Of a DNA stretch of 64,000 bases, positions 19,928 through 44,900 are shown piece after piece. The number at the start of each line of letters is the position of its first letter. Within the stretch, counting starts at the first letter, position 1. The position numbers and the translations under genes are program-made. This DNA is from Globomyces pollinis-pini (Eukaryota > Chytridiomycota > Chytridiomycetes > Rhizophydiales > Globomycetaceae). The notes beneath the pieces are model-generated. The model saw only the letters and a list, made by a program, of their open reading frames with translations, did not search any database and was not told the DNA's origin. The DNA lies in assembly GCA_025399215.1 (NCBI GenBank), contig MU621090.1, positions 1 to 64,000 on the forward strand. Direction: 5' to 3'.

Positions 19928-21981
19928 TTATCGAAACGTAATAAATGGATGGTTTAAGGCTTGATGAGCATTGATACGTTGATATGGATCAAAAGTTAAT
20001 AATGATTTAATGAATTCAAGAAATAATTGTTCAAATTCGGTACGAGGTCGTATGATACTCTAACAAAAATCAAATTTGAAATTATACCTGGATAGTTTCC
20101 ATACGTTCAAGAAACGCTTGGGAGGATTGTTCGGTATTGGATGATGGATAATTAATGGTCCCATTGTATCGGAAAATACCTTCATTCATATCACTACAAA
20201 TTAACAATACGATGTTACGGGACTTTGTTGATCATATGTGTTGGGAACGCTCCTAATACTATTTCCATCATCTTTAAATGTTCCATATCCTCATGTGTTT
20301 GAAATAGCTACGTTTAGTGGTGATAGTTACTGCAATCCCTGTATATAATTCTACCAAAATACATCCAAGTGACCACTAATATTAATAATGTTTTTTTTAC
20401 AATATCACATGGATAAGACCAACCCAAATTTAGTATAATTTCACTTTTGGTTAGTAGATAGAGTTACGGTGCTCGATAATGTCTTGTACTGACCACGTTA
20501 CTATGATGATCTATATCGGCTATCGTACTACCAAAATCAATCAAGATGATTTTGGTAGACACAAGCATTTTTCTTGTTTTTGTTTTCGAATTCTATGGTA
20601 AATGATGAAGATGTTACTTTGACGGGTTGAGCTTTGGTTTCATTATCGACCAACATCAAGTTTTCTGGTTTTAAATCAGTATGGATTAGACCTATTGTAT
20701 TTGTGAATCTGTCAAATTACCTTAGTGTCAGTAAGACTCTAAACGTACCTTAGGGAGTTAGTGAGAGTGGATAATACCTAAAATTAAGATTAAATGTAAA
20801 GAACCTAAGATAAGTTATAGAAGAGTCACCTAAATCATGAAGGAATGCAACAGATATAAGCAATTGATGAGCAAAAGATTGGATCTGTCTTAGGCTGAAA
20901 GGAGAGAAATGCACACTTTTAAAGTAATCAAACAAACTCTGAGACAATAAATCAAACACCATACAAATATGATTTTCATATACAAAACAATCTCTTAAAT
21001 GAATACATTGCCTATGTATTAGATATGCGGATTACTTTAGATTGTTGGGATCATGGTATTGTAATTGCTCCAATATTTTGATTTCGATTTTAGATGCATC
21101 GGTATATTTTTGAATTGCTTTGATGATTTTGATGGCCACATGAGTTTGTGAATGACAATCGTATGCTTTCACGACTTTTCCAAATGTACCTTGACCAAGA
21201 AGGGATATGATTTTGTCTATGGTTAGTTTTGAGGTAGTACATCTGTCGGAGAGAAAGGTATGATTGAGAATGATGAGGTGTCCTTCGTGATCATCAATAC
21301 TGCTCGGATATTCAGTTTGTTGATGGATATGATTTAGTATATGCGAATAGCGAGATCGTGGAGGTTGGTTATAGGGTCTGGTTTGTGATCGTGAGCTTGA
21401 TTCATTGTTTCGTCTACTAGTTTGTGAATTTCTTCTACTAGACTGTGATTGAGAGTATCTTGATTCTGATTTTTCCGAATATTGTTGACTATTTCTTTCA
21501 TCGTAACGAGAGATTCTTTTCTCATATCTCGAATTTCTATCATTTCTGATATGAGAGTATCCATTTACCTTGATCTTTCAATTCTTTCATCGTATCGTGA
21601 CTTTCTTTCATCATATCTTGAGGGAGTGAAGTCCATGTCGAATGATTTATCATATCTATCTCCATATCTTCTATCATTATATCTTTAATTAACGAATCAA
21701 GAGATATATACCTCCTATCATCATATCTTTGATTAATAATAAAAAATGAACCTTCTATCATCATATCTTTTGTGAGTTTGATAAAATATACCTCCTATCA
21801 TCATATCTTTAATAAGTTTCTATTGAATATATACCTTCTATCATCATATCTTTGATTAACAACAATAATATATACCTTCTAGTATCATATCTTTTCAATT
21901 AATTGTTATTAAATGATACCTTCTATCATCGTATCTTTGAATTAATTTAGTTGGTTTGAAATACCTAGAAGATGATTCCAT
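19928..21981 (-). CDS. LAMMER (CLK/Kns1/Lkh1-type) dual-specificity kinase with microexon-coded N-terminus
   Basis: LAMMER kinases phosphorylate SR-type splicing factors and other targets. On the minus strand the N-terminus is a run of RYDDR-like units followed by an Arg/Ser/Asn/Gln-rich tail. The kinase domain has the glycine loop [70 protein letters not shown] and [15 protein letters not shown]. The family motif reads [16 protein letters not shown], a variant of EHLAMMERILG. It ends [15 protein letters not shown]. All introns read by frame are 23-30 nt, and several cut inside kinase motifs, for example between RAP and EIIL. About 15 introns lie in 2.05 kb. The start ATG at 21981 is the first codon of an unbroken spliced frame. 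Confidence 0.92.
21683..21964 (-). repeat. Tandem array of six 15-nt microexons and seven 25-30-nt introns
   Basis: On the minus strand the unit ATATGATGATAGAAG recurs with one or two changes at 21920-21934, 21876-21890, 21835-21849, 21792-21806, 21752-21766 and 21712-21726. The stretches between them begin GTAT (once GTTC) and end AAAG: 21935-21964 (30 nt), 21891-21919 (29), 21850-21875 (26), 21807-21834 (28), 21767-21791 (25), 21727-21751 (25) and 21683-21711 (29). Removing them gives an open frame MESSS followed by RYDDR-type units, each intron falling after the second base of an Arg codon. The units are nearly identical while the intervening sequences differ. The next exon (21569-21682) contains further unsplit units of the same kind. 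Confidence 0.8.
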
Positions 21982-22268: not shown

Positions 22269-24193
22269 ATGTCCCGAAACAACCAACCTCCATACAACTA
22301 TCAACCCTCTCATCCTCATGTTCCTCCTACTCCATACAATCCTTCCCCTTATAATCAAAGACCTAATAACAATCCTCCCCCTCCACCTCAACGATTGCCC
22401 AATTATAACACTCCTCTTAAAACTTTAGCAATCGATGAACAAACTTTGAATCGTTTCAAAGACTTGGAATTAAAGTAATCTCTCTAACTGACTCACTTTT
22501 TAGTCATGTCACTACTGTCTCAAAGTTCGAACAGGATGTTAAAGACTTGAATCAACAAATTAATGACTTACAACTTGCTCTCACTACAAAAGATTCTCTC
22601 ATCAAAGACTTGGACGCTAAAAAAAATCACTTATCCAAATTACTAGAAATTCAACAATCAGAAAATATTAAAAATAACAGCTCTGATGCCTTGAAACAAC
22701 TTCAATCTCAACTCGATTATGAAAGAAATGCTAATATTCAAATGGATGCTTACTTGAAAGAATTACAAGCTAACGCTAACCATCCTGATGTGAACCATTT
22801 GAATGAATTGTTAAATGCTGAAAAAACTGCAAATCTTCAATTAGATGCTCTAGCTCTTTCTTTGAAAAAAGAATTGGCTGAATTGAAAGCTAAGCAATCT
22901 TTAGGTAAGGTTCTTTTGTTTATAGTCTTTTATTTTTAAGCACCTTTGGTGTTCTGACACCTCCTTATCCACAATTAAATATGTCTCGTTGTATCACAGT
23001 ATATCTCTCTCGTTATTCCTTATTTGTATTTGTCTCATTATCCCTTATTTTTATTTGTCTCATTATTCCATATTTGTATTTTTACCTTTAATCTATCTAT
23101 GTTTGTCTCGTTACAAAATAACTGAATTTACTATCGATATAGTATAAACCATTATTATAACCTCTAATGGTTTATTGGTATCTTTCATTACATCTTTAAC
23201 TTACCTATAAAATGCATAGCCACTAATTTCTTAGCATCCCCAACTACCTCAAGCTCTTTTGAAGCATTGCAGCGCCAATTGGATAAAGAAAGAGCTGCGA
23301 ATGCTCAACAAGTTAAAGAAAAAGATACACATATTGCTCGCCTAATTGAACAAATTAAAGGTTTTCATCCTATAGACTGATTTCTTAGAACAAGATAAAG
23401 CATCAGTGGTTAGTTCAAATAGTGATCGCTATATGAGAGAAATCTCTGATTTGAAGAGAGCGAATGCCTCTCATCAACAACAAGTGTGGAATTTAACAGA
23501 ACAATTGAAGCGTGCCAATGAAGCATTAAAACAAAACCAATCTTCATCTGTAGAACCATCAAAACTATTCCTTCGAAATACTCCATCCGGGACCCAACCG
23601 CCATCGGTGGCTCCAAAAGGATTTGATCCAGACTTATGGAAACTCTTTTTAGAATTCGACAAGTTAAAGACTGGACGATTAGATGTGGGAGAACTCCACC
23701 AAACCATTTCTAAAGGCCCATGGCCACCATTGTCACTTAACTCTGCATGGATTCTTGTTAGAATCGCAGATGGCAACGGAGAATTTGTGGTAGCCGATAA
23801 ACTACCAATCATCTGGGCTTTCTTAAAATCCTGTAAACTCACATTTGAAAAATTCGACAAACATCGATCTTCAGCTAACGTATGGGGATTTGTAGAAGAA
23901 AACTCACTCGAAGATGCATTCAAAGCACTTGAAATTCGATTGCCAAAAAAAGCTTTGGCCAATATATTAAAAAAGCATCCATCTCCAGGTAGATTTCAAT
24001 ATCACTCAATCTAGATCGTCGTTACACTTGGGATGAATTTGTTGCTGTGGTTTCATTGGTTAAAGTATGGTTGGTTGAATTCGACAAGATTGATTTGGGT
24101 ATTTGATTAATTGTTAATGTTTTAGATCGCGATCGTGCTATTTCTATGTTGTATGATCAGTATATGATTACTGTGTCGAGGTGTATTCAATAG
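22269..24193 (+). CDS. Penta-EF-hand protein with Pro/Asn-rich N-terminus and coiled coil
   Basis: The N-terminus (22269-22476) is Pro/Tyr/Asn-rich, as in peflin and ALG-2 relatives. A long coiled coil follows (about 22510-22900 and 23250-23560; for example LNQQINDLQLALTTKDSLIK). The C-terminal domain (23600-24193) resembles penta-EF-hand proteins: DPDLWKLFLEFDKLKTGRLD, GELHQTISKGPWPPLSLNSA, then weaker hands ending RRYTWDEFVAVVSLVKVWL and FDKIDLDRDRAISML. Several calcium-loop positions are poorly conserved, so calcium binding may be reduced. PEF proteins usually have no coiled coil, so the combination is uncommon. A 330-nt intron (22905-23234) splits the coiled coil; the others are about 25-30 nt. 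Confidence 0.72.
22990..23085 (+). repeat. Short tandem repeat inside the 330-nt intron
   Basis: About three imperfect copies of a roughly 30-bp T-rich unit (CTCATTATTCCTTATTTGTA-like followed by TTTGT). They lie inside the only long intron I found here. No mobile-element ends or coding capacity are visible. Confidence 0.6.
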
Positions 24194-27522: not shown

Positions 27523-28680
27523 ATGATTTCATCACCAGAATTAGTGGATACCTTTGATCTGCAAGAACTAAATAATGGATTGCATATGGATAGACTATTG
27601 AAGACTCTTCGTGAAGTTGGTATTGAATTTGAACCAACAGTTAGGATTCATTCAAATCAAGAATCATGGAATGCCAGATCATCTAATCAATCAGTACTTT
27701 AATCAAGTAAAATCACATTCATTACTAATGCAATAGGTTAAAGATTTCTTTAATCATTCTGTGGATACCAAATCAAAGTATGGATACGATCTATCAATAG
27801 ATGCTGGATGGTTGAACATTGCTGGTGAAAGGTGATGAATACAAACCAATTGATGATTTAGATTAAATCAACAAAGTTCATTTAGAGAGAATAAAGAAGC
27901 ATTTAATATCAGACCGTCGCTGCCATTGAATCTACCTCCAGGCTTTGAAACAGATACCGTCAAACAATTCATTCAGGTATTGTATTAGTAAATGTTTTAT
28001 TGATTCAATCAGGAGTCATATAAAGTTAGGGATCAAGTACTACGCGCTTATGCACAATGTTTAAAAATTGATGATGTTGATTATTTTGTCAAACGACATA
28101 ATCCAAATCAACCTAGTGGAACAGTTTTAAGATCTTTGTTTTATCCTCCAATTGAAACGGAAGAAACTCAAAATATGATCAGAGCTGGAGGGTAATTCAT
28201 CAATCACTGCTTAATTTAGACATTCTGATTTTGGGAGTATTACTTTACTATTTACAGAGCCAAATGACCCTGGTGGTTTAGAAATCGTACAGCCAGGAAC
28301 AATTGACACCTTTGTACCTGTCACATCGGTGAAATCTCAAATCATTGTCAATACTGGTGATTTATTGGAATATTGGACTGGTTCTTATTTTCGATCAACT
28401 ATCCACCGAGTTGTTTTGCCAGCCAGTTCGAAATTAAAACAAGCCCGGTAGGATGAACGTTAAATTAACTATTAGTTATTCGATTGCTTTTTTCAATCAA
28501 CCTGAAGCTACTACACCATTAACAGTCATTCCAAGTCCAATTTTGACAGACGCGAGAGTAAATTTGAACGAACGGCAATCAAGCGCGTATGAAGATTTTG
28601 CTGCCAGCAAGATCAAAGGAAATCCTTCCACTGCTGGGGAACATCTTCGCTTAAGAATTAACCATGTTCATGGGCTTTAA
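27523..28680 (+). CDS. 2-oxoglutarate/Fe(II) dioxygenase, isopenicillin N synthase-like (copy 1)
   Basis: The N-terminal DIOX_N part has GFIQIKNHGMPDHLINQYF. The catalytic double-stranded beta helix has HSDFGSITLLFTEPNDPGGL (the HxD iron ligands), IVNTGDLLEYWTGSYFRSTI and HRVVLP (the distal His), and RYSIAFFNQPE (the Arg that binds 2-oxoglutarate plus Ser). All metal and cosubstrate ligands are present. The family is broad (thymine hydroxylase-like, secondary metabolism), so the substrate is unknown. It is split by about six tiny introns, for example 27621-27645 (25 nt). A paralogue with the same layout lies at 32152-33321, beyond the insulysin gene. Confidence 0.88.
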
Positions 28681-32151: not shown

Positions 32152-33321
32152 ATGTGTGATAGTGAATTGGTAGAGACTTTCGATTTGGTTGAACTAAATG
32201 CCGGAAAGAATCTAGATGAGCTTCGAAATGCTTTGAAGGAAGTGGGTAATGAAATTGATTAACCAAAAGGATTCATTCAGGTTAAAAACCATGGATTTGA
32301 TCCAACTTTACTACGTCAATATTTTATAGAAGTAAGTGGAATACTATGCTAACTGTTATTCAGTCCAAATCATTTTTCAATAATCCAAAGGAATTAAAAG
32401 AAAACTACAAATATAAATCAACGAATAATTCTGGATGGTTGGAAATTGGAACAGAAACGTAATCAAAACCAAAATTCTAAAATTCAAGTCTTAATAGAAA
32501 TGACAAATCAAAGGAATTCAAGGAAGCCATCAACTTTAATGTTGATGAATTACCATTAGAATTTCCTGATGGTTTTAATCAATCAACAGTAACTAGATTT
32601 ATTGATGTAAATTGGATTAGATTATAGTTTTACGAGATAGGAATGTCGAAAAGTTTGTCAACAGATACTTCGAGCTTATGCAGCAAGTTTACAAATCGAT
32701 ACTGTTGCAGGTGGTATTGATTTCTTTACAAATTGTCATCAACCACACTTACCTAGTGCATCTATCCTAAGATCTTTGTATTATCCAGCTATTAATCTAA
32801 ATAACAAGACCGACTTGATCAGAGCAGGAGGGTAATATGTCCTTTATAATAAGTTAGACATTCAGATTTTGGTAGTATTACATTGCTGTTTACTGAACCG
32901 AATGATCCTGGTGGTTTAGAAATTGTAAAACCAGGAACTGTTGATACCTTTGTACCTGTGAAATCAGTCGAGTCACAAATCATTGTAAATACTGGAGATT
33001 TATTGGAATATTGGACTGGATCTTATTTTAGATCAACAATTCATAGAGTTGTTTTACCTGAAGTTTCTAAACAAAATCAATCTCGGTTTGCTTTTGTGTA
33101 TTCATATATCCAGTTATTCAATTGCTTTCTTCTTGCAAGCAGAATCTAAAACACCACTTTCAGTGATTCCAAGTCAAATTCTTCGTGAGTCAAATGTTTG
33201 TTTGCAATCTAGAGAATCAAAGGCATTTGAAGATTTTGCAGCTTCCAAAATAAATGGGGTCCCAGCAACTGCTAATGAACATCTACAACTAAGATTAAAT
33301 CATATTCATCAAAATTCTTGA
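32152..33321 (+). CDS. 2-oxoglutarate/Fe(II) dioxygenase (copy 2)
   Basis: This is a paralogue of the enzyme at 27523-28680 with the same exon order. The N-terminus MCDSELVETFDLVELNAGKN is followed by GFIQVKNHGFDPTLLRQYF. The catalytic part has HSDFGSITLLFTEPNDPGGL, IVNTGDLLEYWTGSYFRSTI, HRVVLPE and RYSIAFFLQAESKTPLS, so iron and 2-oxoglutarate ligands are intact. The catalytic half is nearly identical to copy 1, while the N-terminal half has diverged more. It ends LRLNHIHQNS. It starts only about 30 bp after the insulysin stop, so promoter or 3' signals must be very compact. Substrate unknown. Confidence 0.88.
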
Positions 33322-39290: not shown

Positions 39291-40687
39291 TTACAAATGT
39301 TGACCGGATGACATAAAGGCTTCTGAAAGCCGTCTTACTTGGGGTTGAGAATACTGAGGTCTAGTTTCCCAAGTAGCGATAGATTGTCGACGCGGAGGTT
39401 CTTTTGACTCTGTGACAGGCATTCCTGTGAATAAATCATCATAAAGTTGCTCCAACGCTCGTTTCTTGCTGCATGGCTCTGGAACGGCTGGGGTCGTGTT
39501 TACTGTTGGTTGTTTGTTCGAAGGTGTGGAAGAGAATACATCTTGATACAGTTGGTCCAACTTTTGTTGGCTGGAAGTGCTAAGGATGTCGACACTACTG
39601 TCATTGACAAAATCAGTGATTGTTTTTGATTTCGAAGATTCACTAGTTGATTGCAATAAAAAGTCTAGTGAATGGTCAGCCATATTGCCACCCATCTGAT
39701 TGGTACTTTGCGGATTATACTCTGATCCATCTAATAGGGGACTGAACATTGGATAGGTGTGGATGGGAGACAGCATAGGAGTGGTTGAGATATAATTCAT
39801 ATTGTTAGTTGGTGATGCAATGGTGTTCGTGAAAGGAGATGCTATTTGATTCATTATTGGAGAAGCTATGGTATTTGTAAAGGGTGAGGCTATTTGATTC
39901 ATAGTTGGAGATGCAATTGCATTAGTAAAAGGGGATGCCATTTGATTCATGAGAGGTGATGCAATTGTGTTGACTGGTGATGCAATATTGTTATTAAAAG
40001 TTGAAGCCATGACAGGAGGAAAAGACAACGGAGGAGCAGGAGGAGGTGACAGAGCAATTAAATCCGCCTGAGGAATCGCACATATTTCATCACCATAAGG
40101 GGACAGAGCAATGATATCCGCAGAAGGAGAGGCAGGGCAGTTTGCATAAGGAGAAAGAGCCAAACCAGTTGGGGAGGCAGGGCCAGTAGGGATTTCCAAC
40201 TTAACAGACGAATTTGGACCAAAAAAATAAGTTCCCTTTTTCTGAGGTCTTTGACTTTGATTAGATGGAATGGAAGAGTGAGATTGACTGCTTTGATTTG
40301 CAGGCATCGATTGAGTATTTTGAGAATTCGAAGAATTCAAGACTTTGTGTTCCTGTAAAGTTTCCAAAGGAGCAACTTTGATTTTTCTGGATTGTTTCTT
40401 TTTAGGTGCATTTCTAGTAGGCCATTGAAAATCTGGATAGTCAATTTTGTGTTGTGTGTATGCTTCATGGGATAATTTCTGATATTCCGCACGAACTTCC
40501 TCAGACTCAACAGCCCAGCATTGAGCAGCCATTTTACTGATTTCATGAGATTTGGTGAGGTTATATTTCTTGACGATGCGATCTCTATTAGCTTTTCTAT
40601 AGAATGAGAGATGTTATTTGATTACCTGTATAAGAAGAAAGAATTCAGAGGTTTTTTGACGGAAGAGTTTGTTCCGTTGCTAGACAT
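39291..40687 (-). CDS. HMG-box transcription factor, mating-type (MATA/sex HMG) class
   Basis: On the minus strand exon 1 codes MSSNGTNSSVKKPLNSFFLY. A 29-nt intron (40597-40625) leads to RKANRDRIVKKYNLTKSHEI and SKMAAQCWAVESEEVRAEYQ, with the box ending YTQHKIDYPDFQW. The pattern KxPLNSFFLYRK...HEISK...W...YPDF is that of the fungal mating-type/Ste11 HMG class (a DNA-bending domain) rather than of HMGB proteins. A basic stretch, APKKKQSRKIKV, follows and could be a nuclear signal. The rest is low-complexity, with many Ser-Pro sites and an 8-residue repeat. It lies divergently from the SEN1 helicase. It may be a mating-type gene or a developmental regulator; sequence alone does not decide. 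Confidence 0.82.
39806..39995 (-). repeat. 24-bp tandem repeat coding an IASP-type octapeptide
   Basis: Within the HMG gene about eight units of an eight-residue motif follow one another: IASPVNT, IASPLMNQ, MASPFTNA, IASPTMNQ, IASPFTNT, IASPIMNQ, IASPFTNT and IASPTNN. The alternation of FTN and xMN units shows a higher-order 16-residue (48-bp) period, so doublets were probably duplicated. Each unit has one Ser-Pro site. Confidence 0.85.
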
Positions 40688-41908: not shown

Positions 41909-44900
41909 ATGAATACTCACTGTTTAGCTTATCTTGAATGTGTATGCAATTACATTCATTCATTGAATGCTCAACAGCATTTTTTTCACACGCATCCGGA
42001 TCATATAGAAGTCATCGGTCTATTTGCTGTTCTTTCAACTGATACATTTTTCCTACAGGTCAAGGAAAAGCTAGCATCAGATATAAACACTTGTATAGAT
42101 TGTATTGACGATTTTTACAGTATGCTATTGTTAATCTCAATGATTAGATGCAATGGTTCAATATTGCAAATGTAGTAGAACATTATTCAATGACGATTTG
42201 ACCAGTCAATTGTACGAATATCGCTGTTTTAATTGCTAGGGAAGATGAATTGGCCAAATGGAACATGAATAGACAAGAAAGAGTGATACAATCGTATTTA
42301 TATTATGACATTGATCTATTAGAATTCTTCAGCAATTTAAACTAGCTAGAGAAGCCAATAATGATGTACTGGAAAAACAATTACGAAATCAATCATTATG
42401 TGTCACTTATGAATTGTTAAGATACCCAACTTACTTGTCTAACTTAACCTTGAATAATTTGTTTTGTACAATGTTGTTGGAATCGCAACGGAAAAAGAAG
42501 ATGAAGTTGAAAGATATTATTTATCCAGGTTTGTTCTTTTTTTCTCATCCCTAAGGTATATCATTATGATGAGTTTATTTAAATGATAGGTATTTGGACA
42601 TGATTTATTAACCAATCAAAGGTATTGTTAATGAATATATTAAACCATTCAGGTGTCATATTATTTACATCACACAGTAATATTGTAATTCGGCAATGGG
42701 CAAAGATTTGTAATGAATGTTTTGAGGCTGACAACTAGGTTTGGGTACCAGTCAATATCCTATTGATTTGACTCAAAAGGATTCAATTGTGCCAATGATG
42801 AAGCTTATTTTCCAATCTATTAGAATAGCAATGCATTTTGAAAACCGACCAGTAGATTATCAAGACTATAATTTGACCAGTCTTCCAGAATATTCCTGGA
42901 AAGCAATCATAATGACTTTTCAGCATGTAAAGAAAGATTGGTTTGATAGTTTACTTTTTGTTTATGAATAGTATTGCTACGTTTTTATCAGAAGCATGTT
43001 CAGATTGTGATAAATTACTAGTTTTATCACTGATAAACGAGACAGTTGTTGACTATTGGGACATCATGGAACTTCTCGCTATTTTATTGAGGGAAACCGA
43101 TTGTAAATGGATTAAGAGTGCACCATCAATGTATCTACAGAATTGTTGGAAACGTATAATAGATGATCCACAATTCACGGCAATATCCAGAGTATCAAGC
43201 GTAGATCCTACCGTAGCAAAGCAGCAGAGTGTCGCACTAGCATGGATGTTACCATTATGTAACATGGCCATGACCAAAGAATGGATCCCAGAATCATTAC
43301 AAATATTGCTGAACAAATCGGACAAGTTTTCTGATTCATTTTTAAACATTCTCAATGATAGTCTTTTAAAGACTATCAGTTGCGATTGGATGTTTCGCGA
43401 CTTGTTAGATCTCATTCTTCCTTTTTTTCTCAAAAATCGAAAAACGTCTACAAATGCAATGAATGCCATGATGCCATTACTATTTCCCTTGGTCCAAGCT
43501 GATATAGATTCCATCACCACATTCTACAATAATCTCAATTCAAAAAATCCGACTGTTTCGTGTCCAATTCATCGCCGAATGTGGGAATCATTGAGTCGAT
43601 GGCCATTGAATGTAACCCAAGTGAATGGAATGATCCTCTTACTGGTTGATCTGGCCTTTTATGGTCGATTATCATCGCCTGAGGATATTTATGACTTTAC
43701 CGAGTTCAATACAAATATGATGATTATATCTGAAGGATTTTTATTGTTTTTGAAACGATATCAAATGGAAGTGGATTTGGATTGGAAAATATTGTGTCGA
43801 TTGTTTGTGTTTTTCGATGAAAATATACAGCACTTTGCATTACAATGTATGAGAACCAAGACAGGATCGCATAAGTATTCCATATATCTTATTAATGCAA
43901 TAGTATTCAGGATATAATTCAAAGTTATATTGAAAGCATTGGTGCCCCTTTTATAGATTACCTCTTGGTACTTGTGAAAGAGTATCAATCGTTTATCAAA
44001 CAAGGTGATGTCATGGTTAATTCTGGAAAATCTATCTTTGCTTTGTTTTCCTATACTAGCGCAGCCGTCTTTTCCAATGCAAATCTAGGATTAAAGATTC
44101 GCTTTAATTATTGGTTCCAAGTATACTTAACTGCCTTTGAAATTTTGAATAACCCCAAAACTCAATATCAGATATCTACAAAGTCGATCGACTCGTTTAT
44201 TCTCTCTATGATTGAAACCATGAAATCATTTTTACACTACCATACCAAAGCCACTGTTGAATTAAGTAAGAGCAAATTCGAAAATTTTCATCGTGATTTT
44301 GTGGTATATTATGTTTATTGATTGTTAGGAACACACCATTCGAAATTTTGAACAGTGGATTCGACTTTCTACGGATGATATCAATATTGCATGTGTAGGA
44401 TACATTTTGGATTTGTTGAATGCATTTGAAAAGTTCCGGGAAGTTATTCTTCAAACTAATAGGAACGATTTGATTCGATTGCAAGTTCGCAACAACATTT
44501 ACATTTCAAAGTTGAAAGCTTACTTGGACCCAGTTGTTGTGGCAAAACCAATAGTTCGACCTATACCTTCAGCTGAATTTCTCACAAGGACCGTCACGCC
44601 TAGTAGTTCATCTACAATGGATGATGTAGCCAATAATAAGAGAGCTTATGTTGAAGAACAAACTTCCTCACATCCTTCCAAATTTTTCAAAACTGAACAG
44701 CGTATTGTGGTACCTAAACCGGCTGTCAACTTGGGCTTTGCTCCTACAATCCCACAACAGCGTAAAAAGCCATCTGGGATATTCGAAAAGTATTCGCAAG
44801 TAGTTTTTTTAACCATTGTAGGTTGAAAATAGATCATGTTTCTGAAGCAAGACGGAAAGAATTATCCAAGAATGTATGGGCTCCACCACAAGCAACCAGT

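Follow-up and report, generated by a model that had tools for sequence, protein, structure and literature searches.

A 15-nt exon array, probably derived from exon-intron duplication, and an exon-less cluster of mini-introns in a predicted LAMMER/CLK-type kinase gene of the chytrid Globomyces pollinis-pini

The micro-exon genes (MEGs) of Schistosoma contain arrays of very short exons, most of them 15 bp long and most with a length divisible by three; in the same genes, introns are described as spanning 100 to almost 5000 bp, and the encoded products as secreted parasite proteins (PMC10526429). Zero-nucleotide-exon ratchet points, at which an acceptor and a donor are juxtaposed as AG/GT, are described in long Drosophila introns (PMC8605326). 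In fungi, complex introns called stwintrons have been reported, which are probably removed in consecutive steps (PMC9024468, PMC6616335), and Paramecium introns are given as about 25 bp in length, with retention truncating the product (PMC5014332). In the open-access literature on comparable arrays and abutting introns, we found the schistosome genes and the ratchet points and no chytrid case, and neither pattern built of 25–30-nt introns was found there in a fungus. Here we analyze a 64,000-nt stretch of DNA (the window; contig MU621090.1, positions 1 to 64,000) from Globomyces pollinis-pini, a chytrid of the order Rhizophydiales. The window has a kinase gene with an array of 15-nt exons and an exon-less cluster of introns (Table 1).

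The array is located at the 5' end of the gene (minus strand, 21981–21683), where six 15-nt units, as read from the sequence, are interleaved with seven GT-AG introns of 25–30 nt. Each of the seven introns starts with GT, ends with AAAG, and interrupts the reading frame in phase 2. The spliced N-terminus is MESSSRYDDRRYDTRRYDDRRYDDRRYDDRRYDDRRYNDRR..., in the same frame as the kinase, and the RYDDR repeat extends past the array into the next exon, where it is intron-free and is followed by the kinase domain. The initial annotation had described near-identical 15-nt units alternating with 25–30-nt GT...AAAG stretches, a single frame open into the kinase once the stretches are removed, and introns at the same place in every unit, and all of this is borne out.

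The array is also the most prominent tandem repeat of the window. Tandem Repeats Finder reports it at 21664–21948 with a period of 40, 6.8 copies, and a score of 228, at the top of seven rows. Elsewhere in the window, a 48-nt tandem repeat (39809–39965, 3.3 copies) is located in a predicted minus-strand gene (39291–40687) that appears HMG-box-like by eye, and a 25-nt tandem repeat (23008–23081, 3.0 copies) lies within a long intron called by the gene finder. A pattern consisting of one array unit with its splice-site edges had eight matches in the genome at up to 3 mismatches, seven in the array and one, with 3 mismatches, on another contig; at up to 2 mismatches, it was absent from the genome outside the array. 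A reversed-pattern control had no matches in the whole genome. When the 348-nt array region was searched against the genome at the DNA level, by a search that skips very common words, its only match was to itself. Rfam at gathering thresholds gave no structured-RNA match in the window. Of the three frames of the 15-nt unit, two are open (RYDDR and DMMIE), and the third has stop codons.

Table 1. Positions of features of the kinase gene in the window.
Feature	Position	Strand	Length	Description	Basis
Whole gene, LAMMER/CLK-type kinase	19928..21981	minus		21 introns of 23–32 nt; 497 aa	Pfam and structure matches
Start codon	21981–21979	minus		ATG	Sequence reading
First coding exon	21965..21981	minus	17 nt	ATGGAATCATCTTCTAG, MESSS plus AG of Arg	
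Whole array	21683..21964	minus		Seven phase-2 GT...AAAG introns and six 15-nt exons	Period-40 tandem repeat
Array intron 1	21964–21935	minus	30 nt		
Array exon 1	21920..21934	minus	15 nt	YDDR unit	
Array intron 2	21919–21891	minus	29 nt		
Array exon 2	21876..21890	minus	15 nt	YDTR unit	
Array intron 3	21875–21850	minus	26 nt		
Array exon 3	21835..21849	minus	15 nt		
Array intron 4	21834–21807	minus	28 nt		
Array exon 4	21792..21806	minus	15 nt		
Array intron 5	21791–21767	minus	25 nt		
Array exon 5	21752..21766	minus	15 nt	Holds out-of-frame ATG start of public model BC833DRAFT_1014	
Array intron 6	21751–21727	minus	25 nt		
Array exon 6	21712..21726	minus	15 nt		
Array intron 7	21711–21683	minus	29 nt		
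Exon after the array	21569..21682	minus	114 nt	Extends RYDDR/RYDER repeat intron-free	
Intron 8	21537..21568	minus	32 nt	Alternative in-frame AG gives 23-nt form ending at 21546	
Intron 9	21217..21240	minus	24 nt		Revealed by public protein
Exon-less cluster	20692..20829	minus	138 nt	Five abutting GT-AG introns (25, 27, 29, 28, and 29 nt)	

The statement in the initial annotation that no comparable array is known does not hold, as the exons of schistosome MEGs are described as mostly 15 bp (PMC10526429). Like MEGs, which have arrays of symmetric exons ranging from a few to tens of bp, the chytrid gene has consecutive symmetric exons, in this case six of 15 nt confined to the N-terminus. Unlike in MEGs, the introns are 25–30 nt, the units are nearly identical to one another, and a kinase of intracellular type is encoded. 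The N-terminus (MESSSRYDDRRYDTRR...), read by eye, has no hydrophobic stretch of the type belonging to a MEG signal peptide.

The gene is predicted to encode a LAMMER/CLK-type kinase, for which phosphorylation of SR proteins is a putative activity. The Pkinase domain of Pfam was matched with an E-value of 4.1e-48, and the best match among solved structures was human CLK2 (E 1.9e-85, the first of 1824 matched sequences), with CLK1 also among the closest; the earlier identification of a LAMMER splicing kinase is upheld by these matches. In common with the LAMMER/CLK kinases (Kns1, Lkh1, and CLK1-4), the protein has the kinase domain and the HTDLKPEN loop, together with a putative EHLxMME motif. 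Its LAMMER signature is degenerate, being a variant of the usual EHLAMMERILG, the 11-residue segment of CLK2 with which it aligns. A homologue from Batrachochytrium dendrobatidis likewise has a degenerate signature (EHLRMMEIVLG). The chytrid kinase also differs from this family in its RYDDR tail: the pattern RY[DE]x[RK] occurs 10 times in this kinase and in none of the 33 homologues checked, which were among 120 matches listed of 6624.

The homology to the kinase domain and to CLK2 fixes the reading frame downstream of the array. An initial model of the gene (508 aa, 20 introns) was dropped after the public protein revealed the 24-nt intron at 21240–21217 and the 32-nt intron 8, and the refined model has 21 introns and encodes 497 aa. 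Intron 8 (minus strand, 21568–21537) has two in-frame acceptors 9 nt apart, and the choice between them may change the protein by three residues (NDR). According to the refined model, retention of one intron at a time leads to loss of the C-terminus for 18 of the 21 introns, and the C-terminus is kept for introns 1, 9, and 12.

To place the array among the introns of this genome, we applied a home-made gene finder to 256 kb of sequence, comprising the window, twelve 10-kb samples, and 21 kinase loci. For the neighboring insulysin gene, the gene finder and the public protein give 977 and 967 aa, respectively, with the 10 extra residues in one place, and this agreement makes the gene finder credible. 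Two similar predicted genes, possibly duplicates, are located on either side of the insulysin gene (plus strand, 27523–28680 and 32152–33321). Among the 689 predicted introns, 650 are 36 nt or shorter, 12 are 37–60 nt, and 27 are longer than 60 nt. The usual size is 23–36 nt, and nearly all introns are ~28 nt in Globomyces pollinis-pini. The array introns are therefore of ordinary size for this organism, and it is their close packing that differs. Intron density, as estimated by the gene finder, is ~4 per kb of coding sequence, which agrees with the value of 3.93 introns per kb given for two other chytrids (PMC8476143). Most donors in the array are strong, five of the seven lying at the 92nd–93rd percentile, and most acceptors are weak (4th–54th percentile). 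Stop-free introns with lengths divisible by three seemed depleted (38, vs. 104 and 83 for the two remaining length classes), but this was set aside, because the gene finder tends to read such introns through.

A held-out version of the gene finder, with the kinase masked from training, placed the start at 21981 and found five of the seven array introns. It read introns 3 and 6 (51 nt together, in frame) as coding, yielding a 523-aa product. Under this held-out model, the longest run of 1–30-nt exons in 111 predicted genes was three (in two genes), and the run in the kinase gene was one, introns 3 and 6 being read through; the rarity of six consecutive microexons thus rests on manual reading and on a model seeded with the array introns. 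In the public model, BC833DRAFT_1014, translation begins within the fifth 15-nt exon, at an ATG in a different frame. Its coding sequence includes intron 6, introns 7, 8, and 9 are spliced out, and the model terminates at intron 10. With most of the kinase domain absent, it cannot represent a whole kinase. The kinase in its whole form is missing from the annotation, in which BC833DRAFT_1014 accounts for only 215 aa at 19928–21981 (minus strand).

As the held-out and public models show, signal strength by itself does not dictate the full array. A part of the array might then be left unspliced, with the start lying inside it or with intron 3, intron 6, or both being coding. Both models give readings of this kind, which stay open because two frames of the 15-nt unit are free of stop codons; retaining introns 3 and 6 together also preserves the frame. 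However, the sequence of intron 6 (GTTCAT...TTAATCAAAG) is that of a normal intron, and the score of intron 3 is at the 81st percentile. Complete removal of the introns, moreover, produces one uniform repeat that is carried on downstream, whereas the public reading forgoes most of the kinase domain. We consider partial splicing distinctly unlikely on these grounds.

As to how the array arose, duplication of an exon-intron unit is the favored explanation, short of proof. Tandem duplication of a unit of ~40 nt probably enlarged the array, and the middles of the introns would have diverged later, with the exons and splice sites being kept. The AAAG end, common to all array introns, is rare among comparison introns (37 of 623), and the GTATA donor is found in four of the seven array introns and in 45 of 623 comparison introns (binomial probabilities of about 2.6e-9 and about 8e-4, respectively, for features picked after looking). 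Since these shared ends lie outside the coding part, they favor joint copying of exon and intron. The arginine of the fourth codon is encoded by AGA or AGG in seven of seven cases, as compared with a genome share of AGR codons of 774/1640 (p 0.005); the codons of the exons otherwise fit ordinary codon usage. The initial annotation had offered either unit duplication or repeated intron gain, and the shared splice sites favor the former. The intron cores do not add to this, as they show, as a group, no excess of similarity over other AT-rich introns (p 0.81), although p is 0.036 in comparison with all introns; the closest pair of cores, from introns 3 and 6, has p 0.002 before correction for 21 pairs.

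The same divergence of the intron middles, which are nearly unrelated, would be expected if introns had been gained singly, by repeated insertion at one proto-splice site of a pre-existing coding repeat. Intron-free RYDDR/RYDER repeats located directly downstream also point to this origin, which is a serious rival to duplication and one that we regard as possible. The AAAG and GTATA ends common to the array introns argue against it, as does the self-match of the array DNA being its only one in the genome under the word-skipping search described above. Nor was any trace of target-site duplication seen: splice-junction similarity was assessed by five tests in up to 651 comparison introns, none of which was significant (p 0.19 to 1.0), and target-site duplication was rejected as an intron origin. 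The array differs from an introner family in matching only itself in the genome and in having diverged intron cores, dispersed near-identical copies being absent.

Returning to the favored origin by duplication, we think it fairly probable, on the basis of the sequence, that the locus is a mostly constitutively spliced array, probably from exon-intron duplication, that encodes an arginine/aspartate mixed-charge tail. Each mini-intron would be recognized separately across its 25–30 nt and removed, and full inclusion of all six units would be the main product, because the usual pairing distance is 23–36 nt. Failed splicing would, through the frame shift caused by most retained introns, switch the product off. 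The initial annotation had instead proposed a tail of variable length, with different subsets of the 15-nt exons being left out. Its premise stands, in that all exons are 15 nt and in phase 2 and any subset keeps the frame, and introns longer than 60 nt do occur in the gene models (27/689). However, skipping a single exon requires an intron of 65–74 nt and skipping all six requires one of 282 nt, whereas the nearest-neighbor choice is 25–30 nt. Variable tails as the main mode are very unlikely for this reason, and the number of units would shift in evolution, not through splicing.

The tail encoded by the fully spliced array has the composition of an arginine-enriched mixed-charge domain, that is, arginine together with aspartate or glutamate in a low-complexity stretch. 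Residues 5–75 contain 22 arginines, 18 aspartates, 3 glutamates, and 11 tyrosines out of 71 amino acids (31% R, 30% D+E). Domains of mixed R/D charge are described as going to nuclear speckles in human cells (PMC9324279). By analogy, the tail may act as such a domain, with putative placement at nuclear speckles, and it could help to position the kinase there or to bind SR proteins. In human cells, R/D-rich tails are reported to be encoded by repetitive purine-rich RNA, and CLKs to modulate the capture of such mRNAs in speckles (PMC12629991). Interstasis, as this system is called, was demonstrated in vertebrate cells, in which the GA-rich exons are highly constitutive (PMC12629991). The chytrid gene resembles it in having an R/D-rich tail that is encoded by repetitive purine-rich RNA.

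The exon-less cluster was absent from the initial annotation and is newly added here. It is located inside the kinase domain, between HDL and the HTDLKPEN loop, and its ends are fixed by kinase homology. The cluster has four AG/GT joints, with no exon between the introns and complete introns on either side of each joint. No tiling by five introns was observed in 60,000 random 138-mers of the same intron composition, and the units of the cluster have no mutual similarity (corrected p 1.0). In a [D1,2] stwintron, the donor of one intron is interrupted by a second, internal intron. The kinase cluster differs in having no split donor, each unit being a complete GT-AG intron beside another. Its four joints (20829–20692) resemble ratchet points, but unlike those of Drosophila, they join five complete abutting introns of 25–29 nt, as predicted from the DNA. 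The gene is also similar to the ultra-short introns of ciliates, which belong to another kingdom, in intron size and in truncation upon retention.

Across the 256 kb, the gene finder predicted twelve chains in which at least two introns abut; outside the kinase these composite introns are gene-finder calls, homology having served to check the ends in the kinase only. Four abutting GT-AG introns (27, 34, 32, and 31 nt) occur in a large helicase gene, which we take to be Sen1-like (plus strand, 42529–42652). Such a four-intron tiling was found in 1 of 60,000 random sequences, and the units of this chain are weakly alike (corrected p 0.032). A chain of three introns (31, 39, and 29 nt) at locus L019 (minus strand, 2569–2471) has a tiling found in 11 of 60,000 random sequences, and the similarity within its best pair of units exceeds chance (corrected p 0.006), a pattern that tandem duplication of introns would produce. 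Among 41 coding gaps that measure 46 nt or more, exact tiling was seen in 9 as compared with 0.24 expected, a count that is biased upward by the preference of the finder for such tilings.

These chains bear on a role for the locus as a sensor of splicing capacity, an idea also put forward in the initial annotation. The stacked introns would cause kinase output to drop steeply with splicing efficiency, and the kinase would feed back on its own splicing. The loss of the C-terminus for most single-intron retentions is consistent with such a sensor, as is the pairing of strong donors with weak acceptors in the array. However, stacking is not special to the kinase, given the helicase chain and the other chains predicted, and a high number of introns is usual in this genome. 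A sensor is unlikely in our estimation. The array and the exon-less cluster together comprise 12 of the 21 introns of the gene, and a broader proposal would have these two clusters of mini-introns form a splicing fuse, in which output would track per-intron efficiency in a feedback loop on SR-protein phosphorylation; the composite introns of this chytrid, with two to five abutting introns of 25–39 nt, would in addition constitute a class of recursive splicing that uses minimal introns throughout. This proposal is, in our judgment, improbable.

The locus raises the question of how closely splicing reactions can be spaced. Two reactions that share a 15-nt exon, or none, with introns near the lower size limit, bear on the minimal spacing of spliceosomes, and the 15-nt-exon and exon-less cases are found together in this one gene of a small-genome species. 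The truncation of the public kinase model indicates that automatic annotation can miss such arrays. The locus is a place to watch the multiplication of intron-bearing repeats and the possible use of these as a sensor by a splicing kinase.
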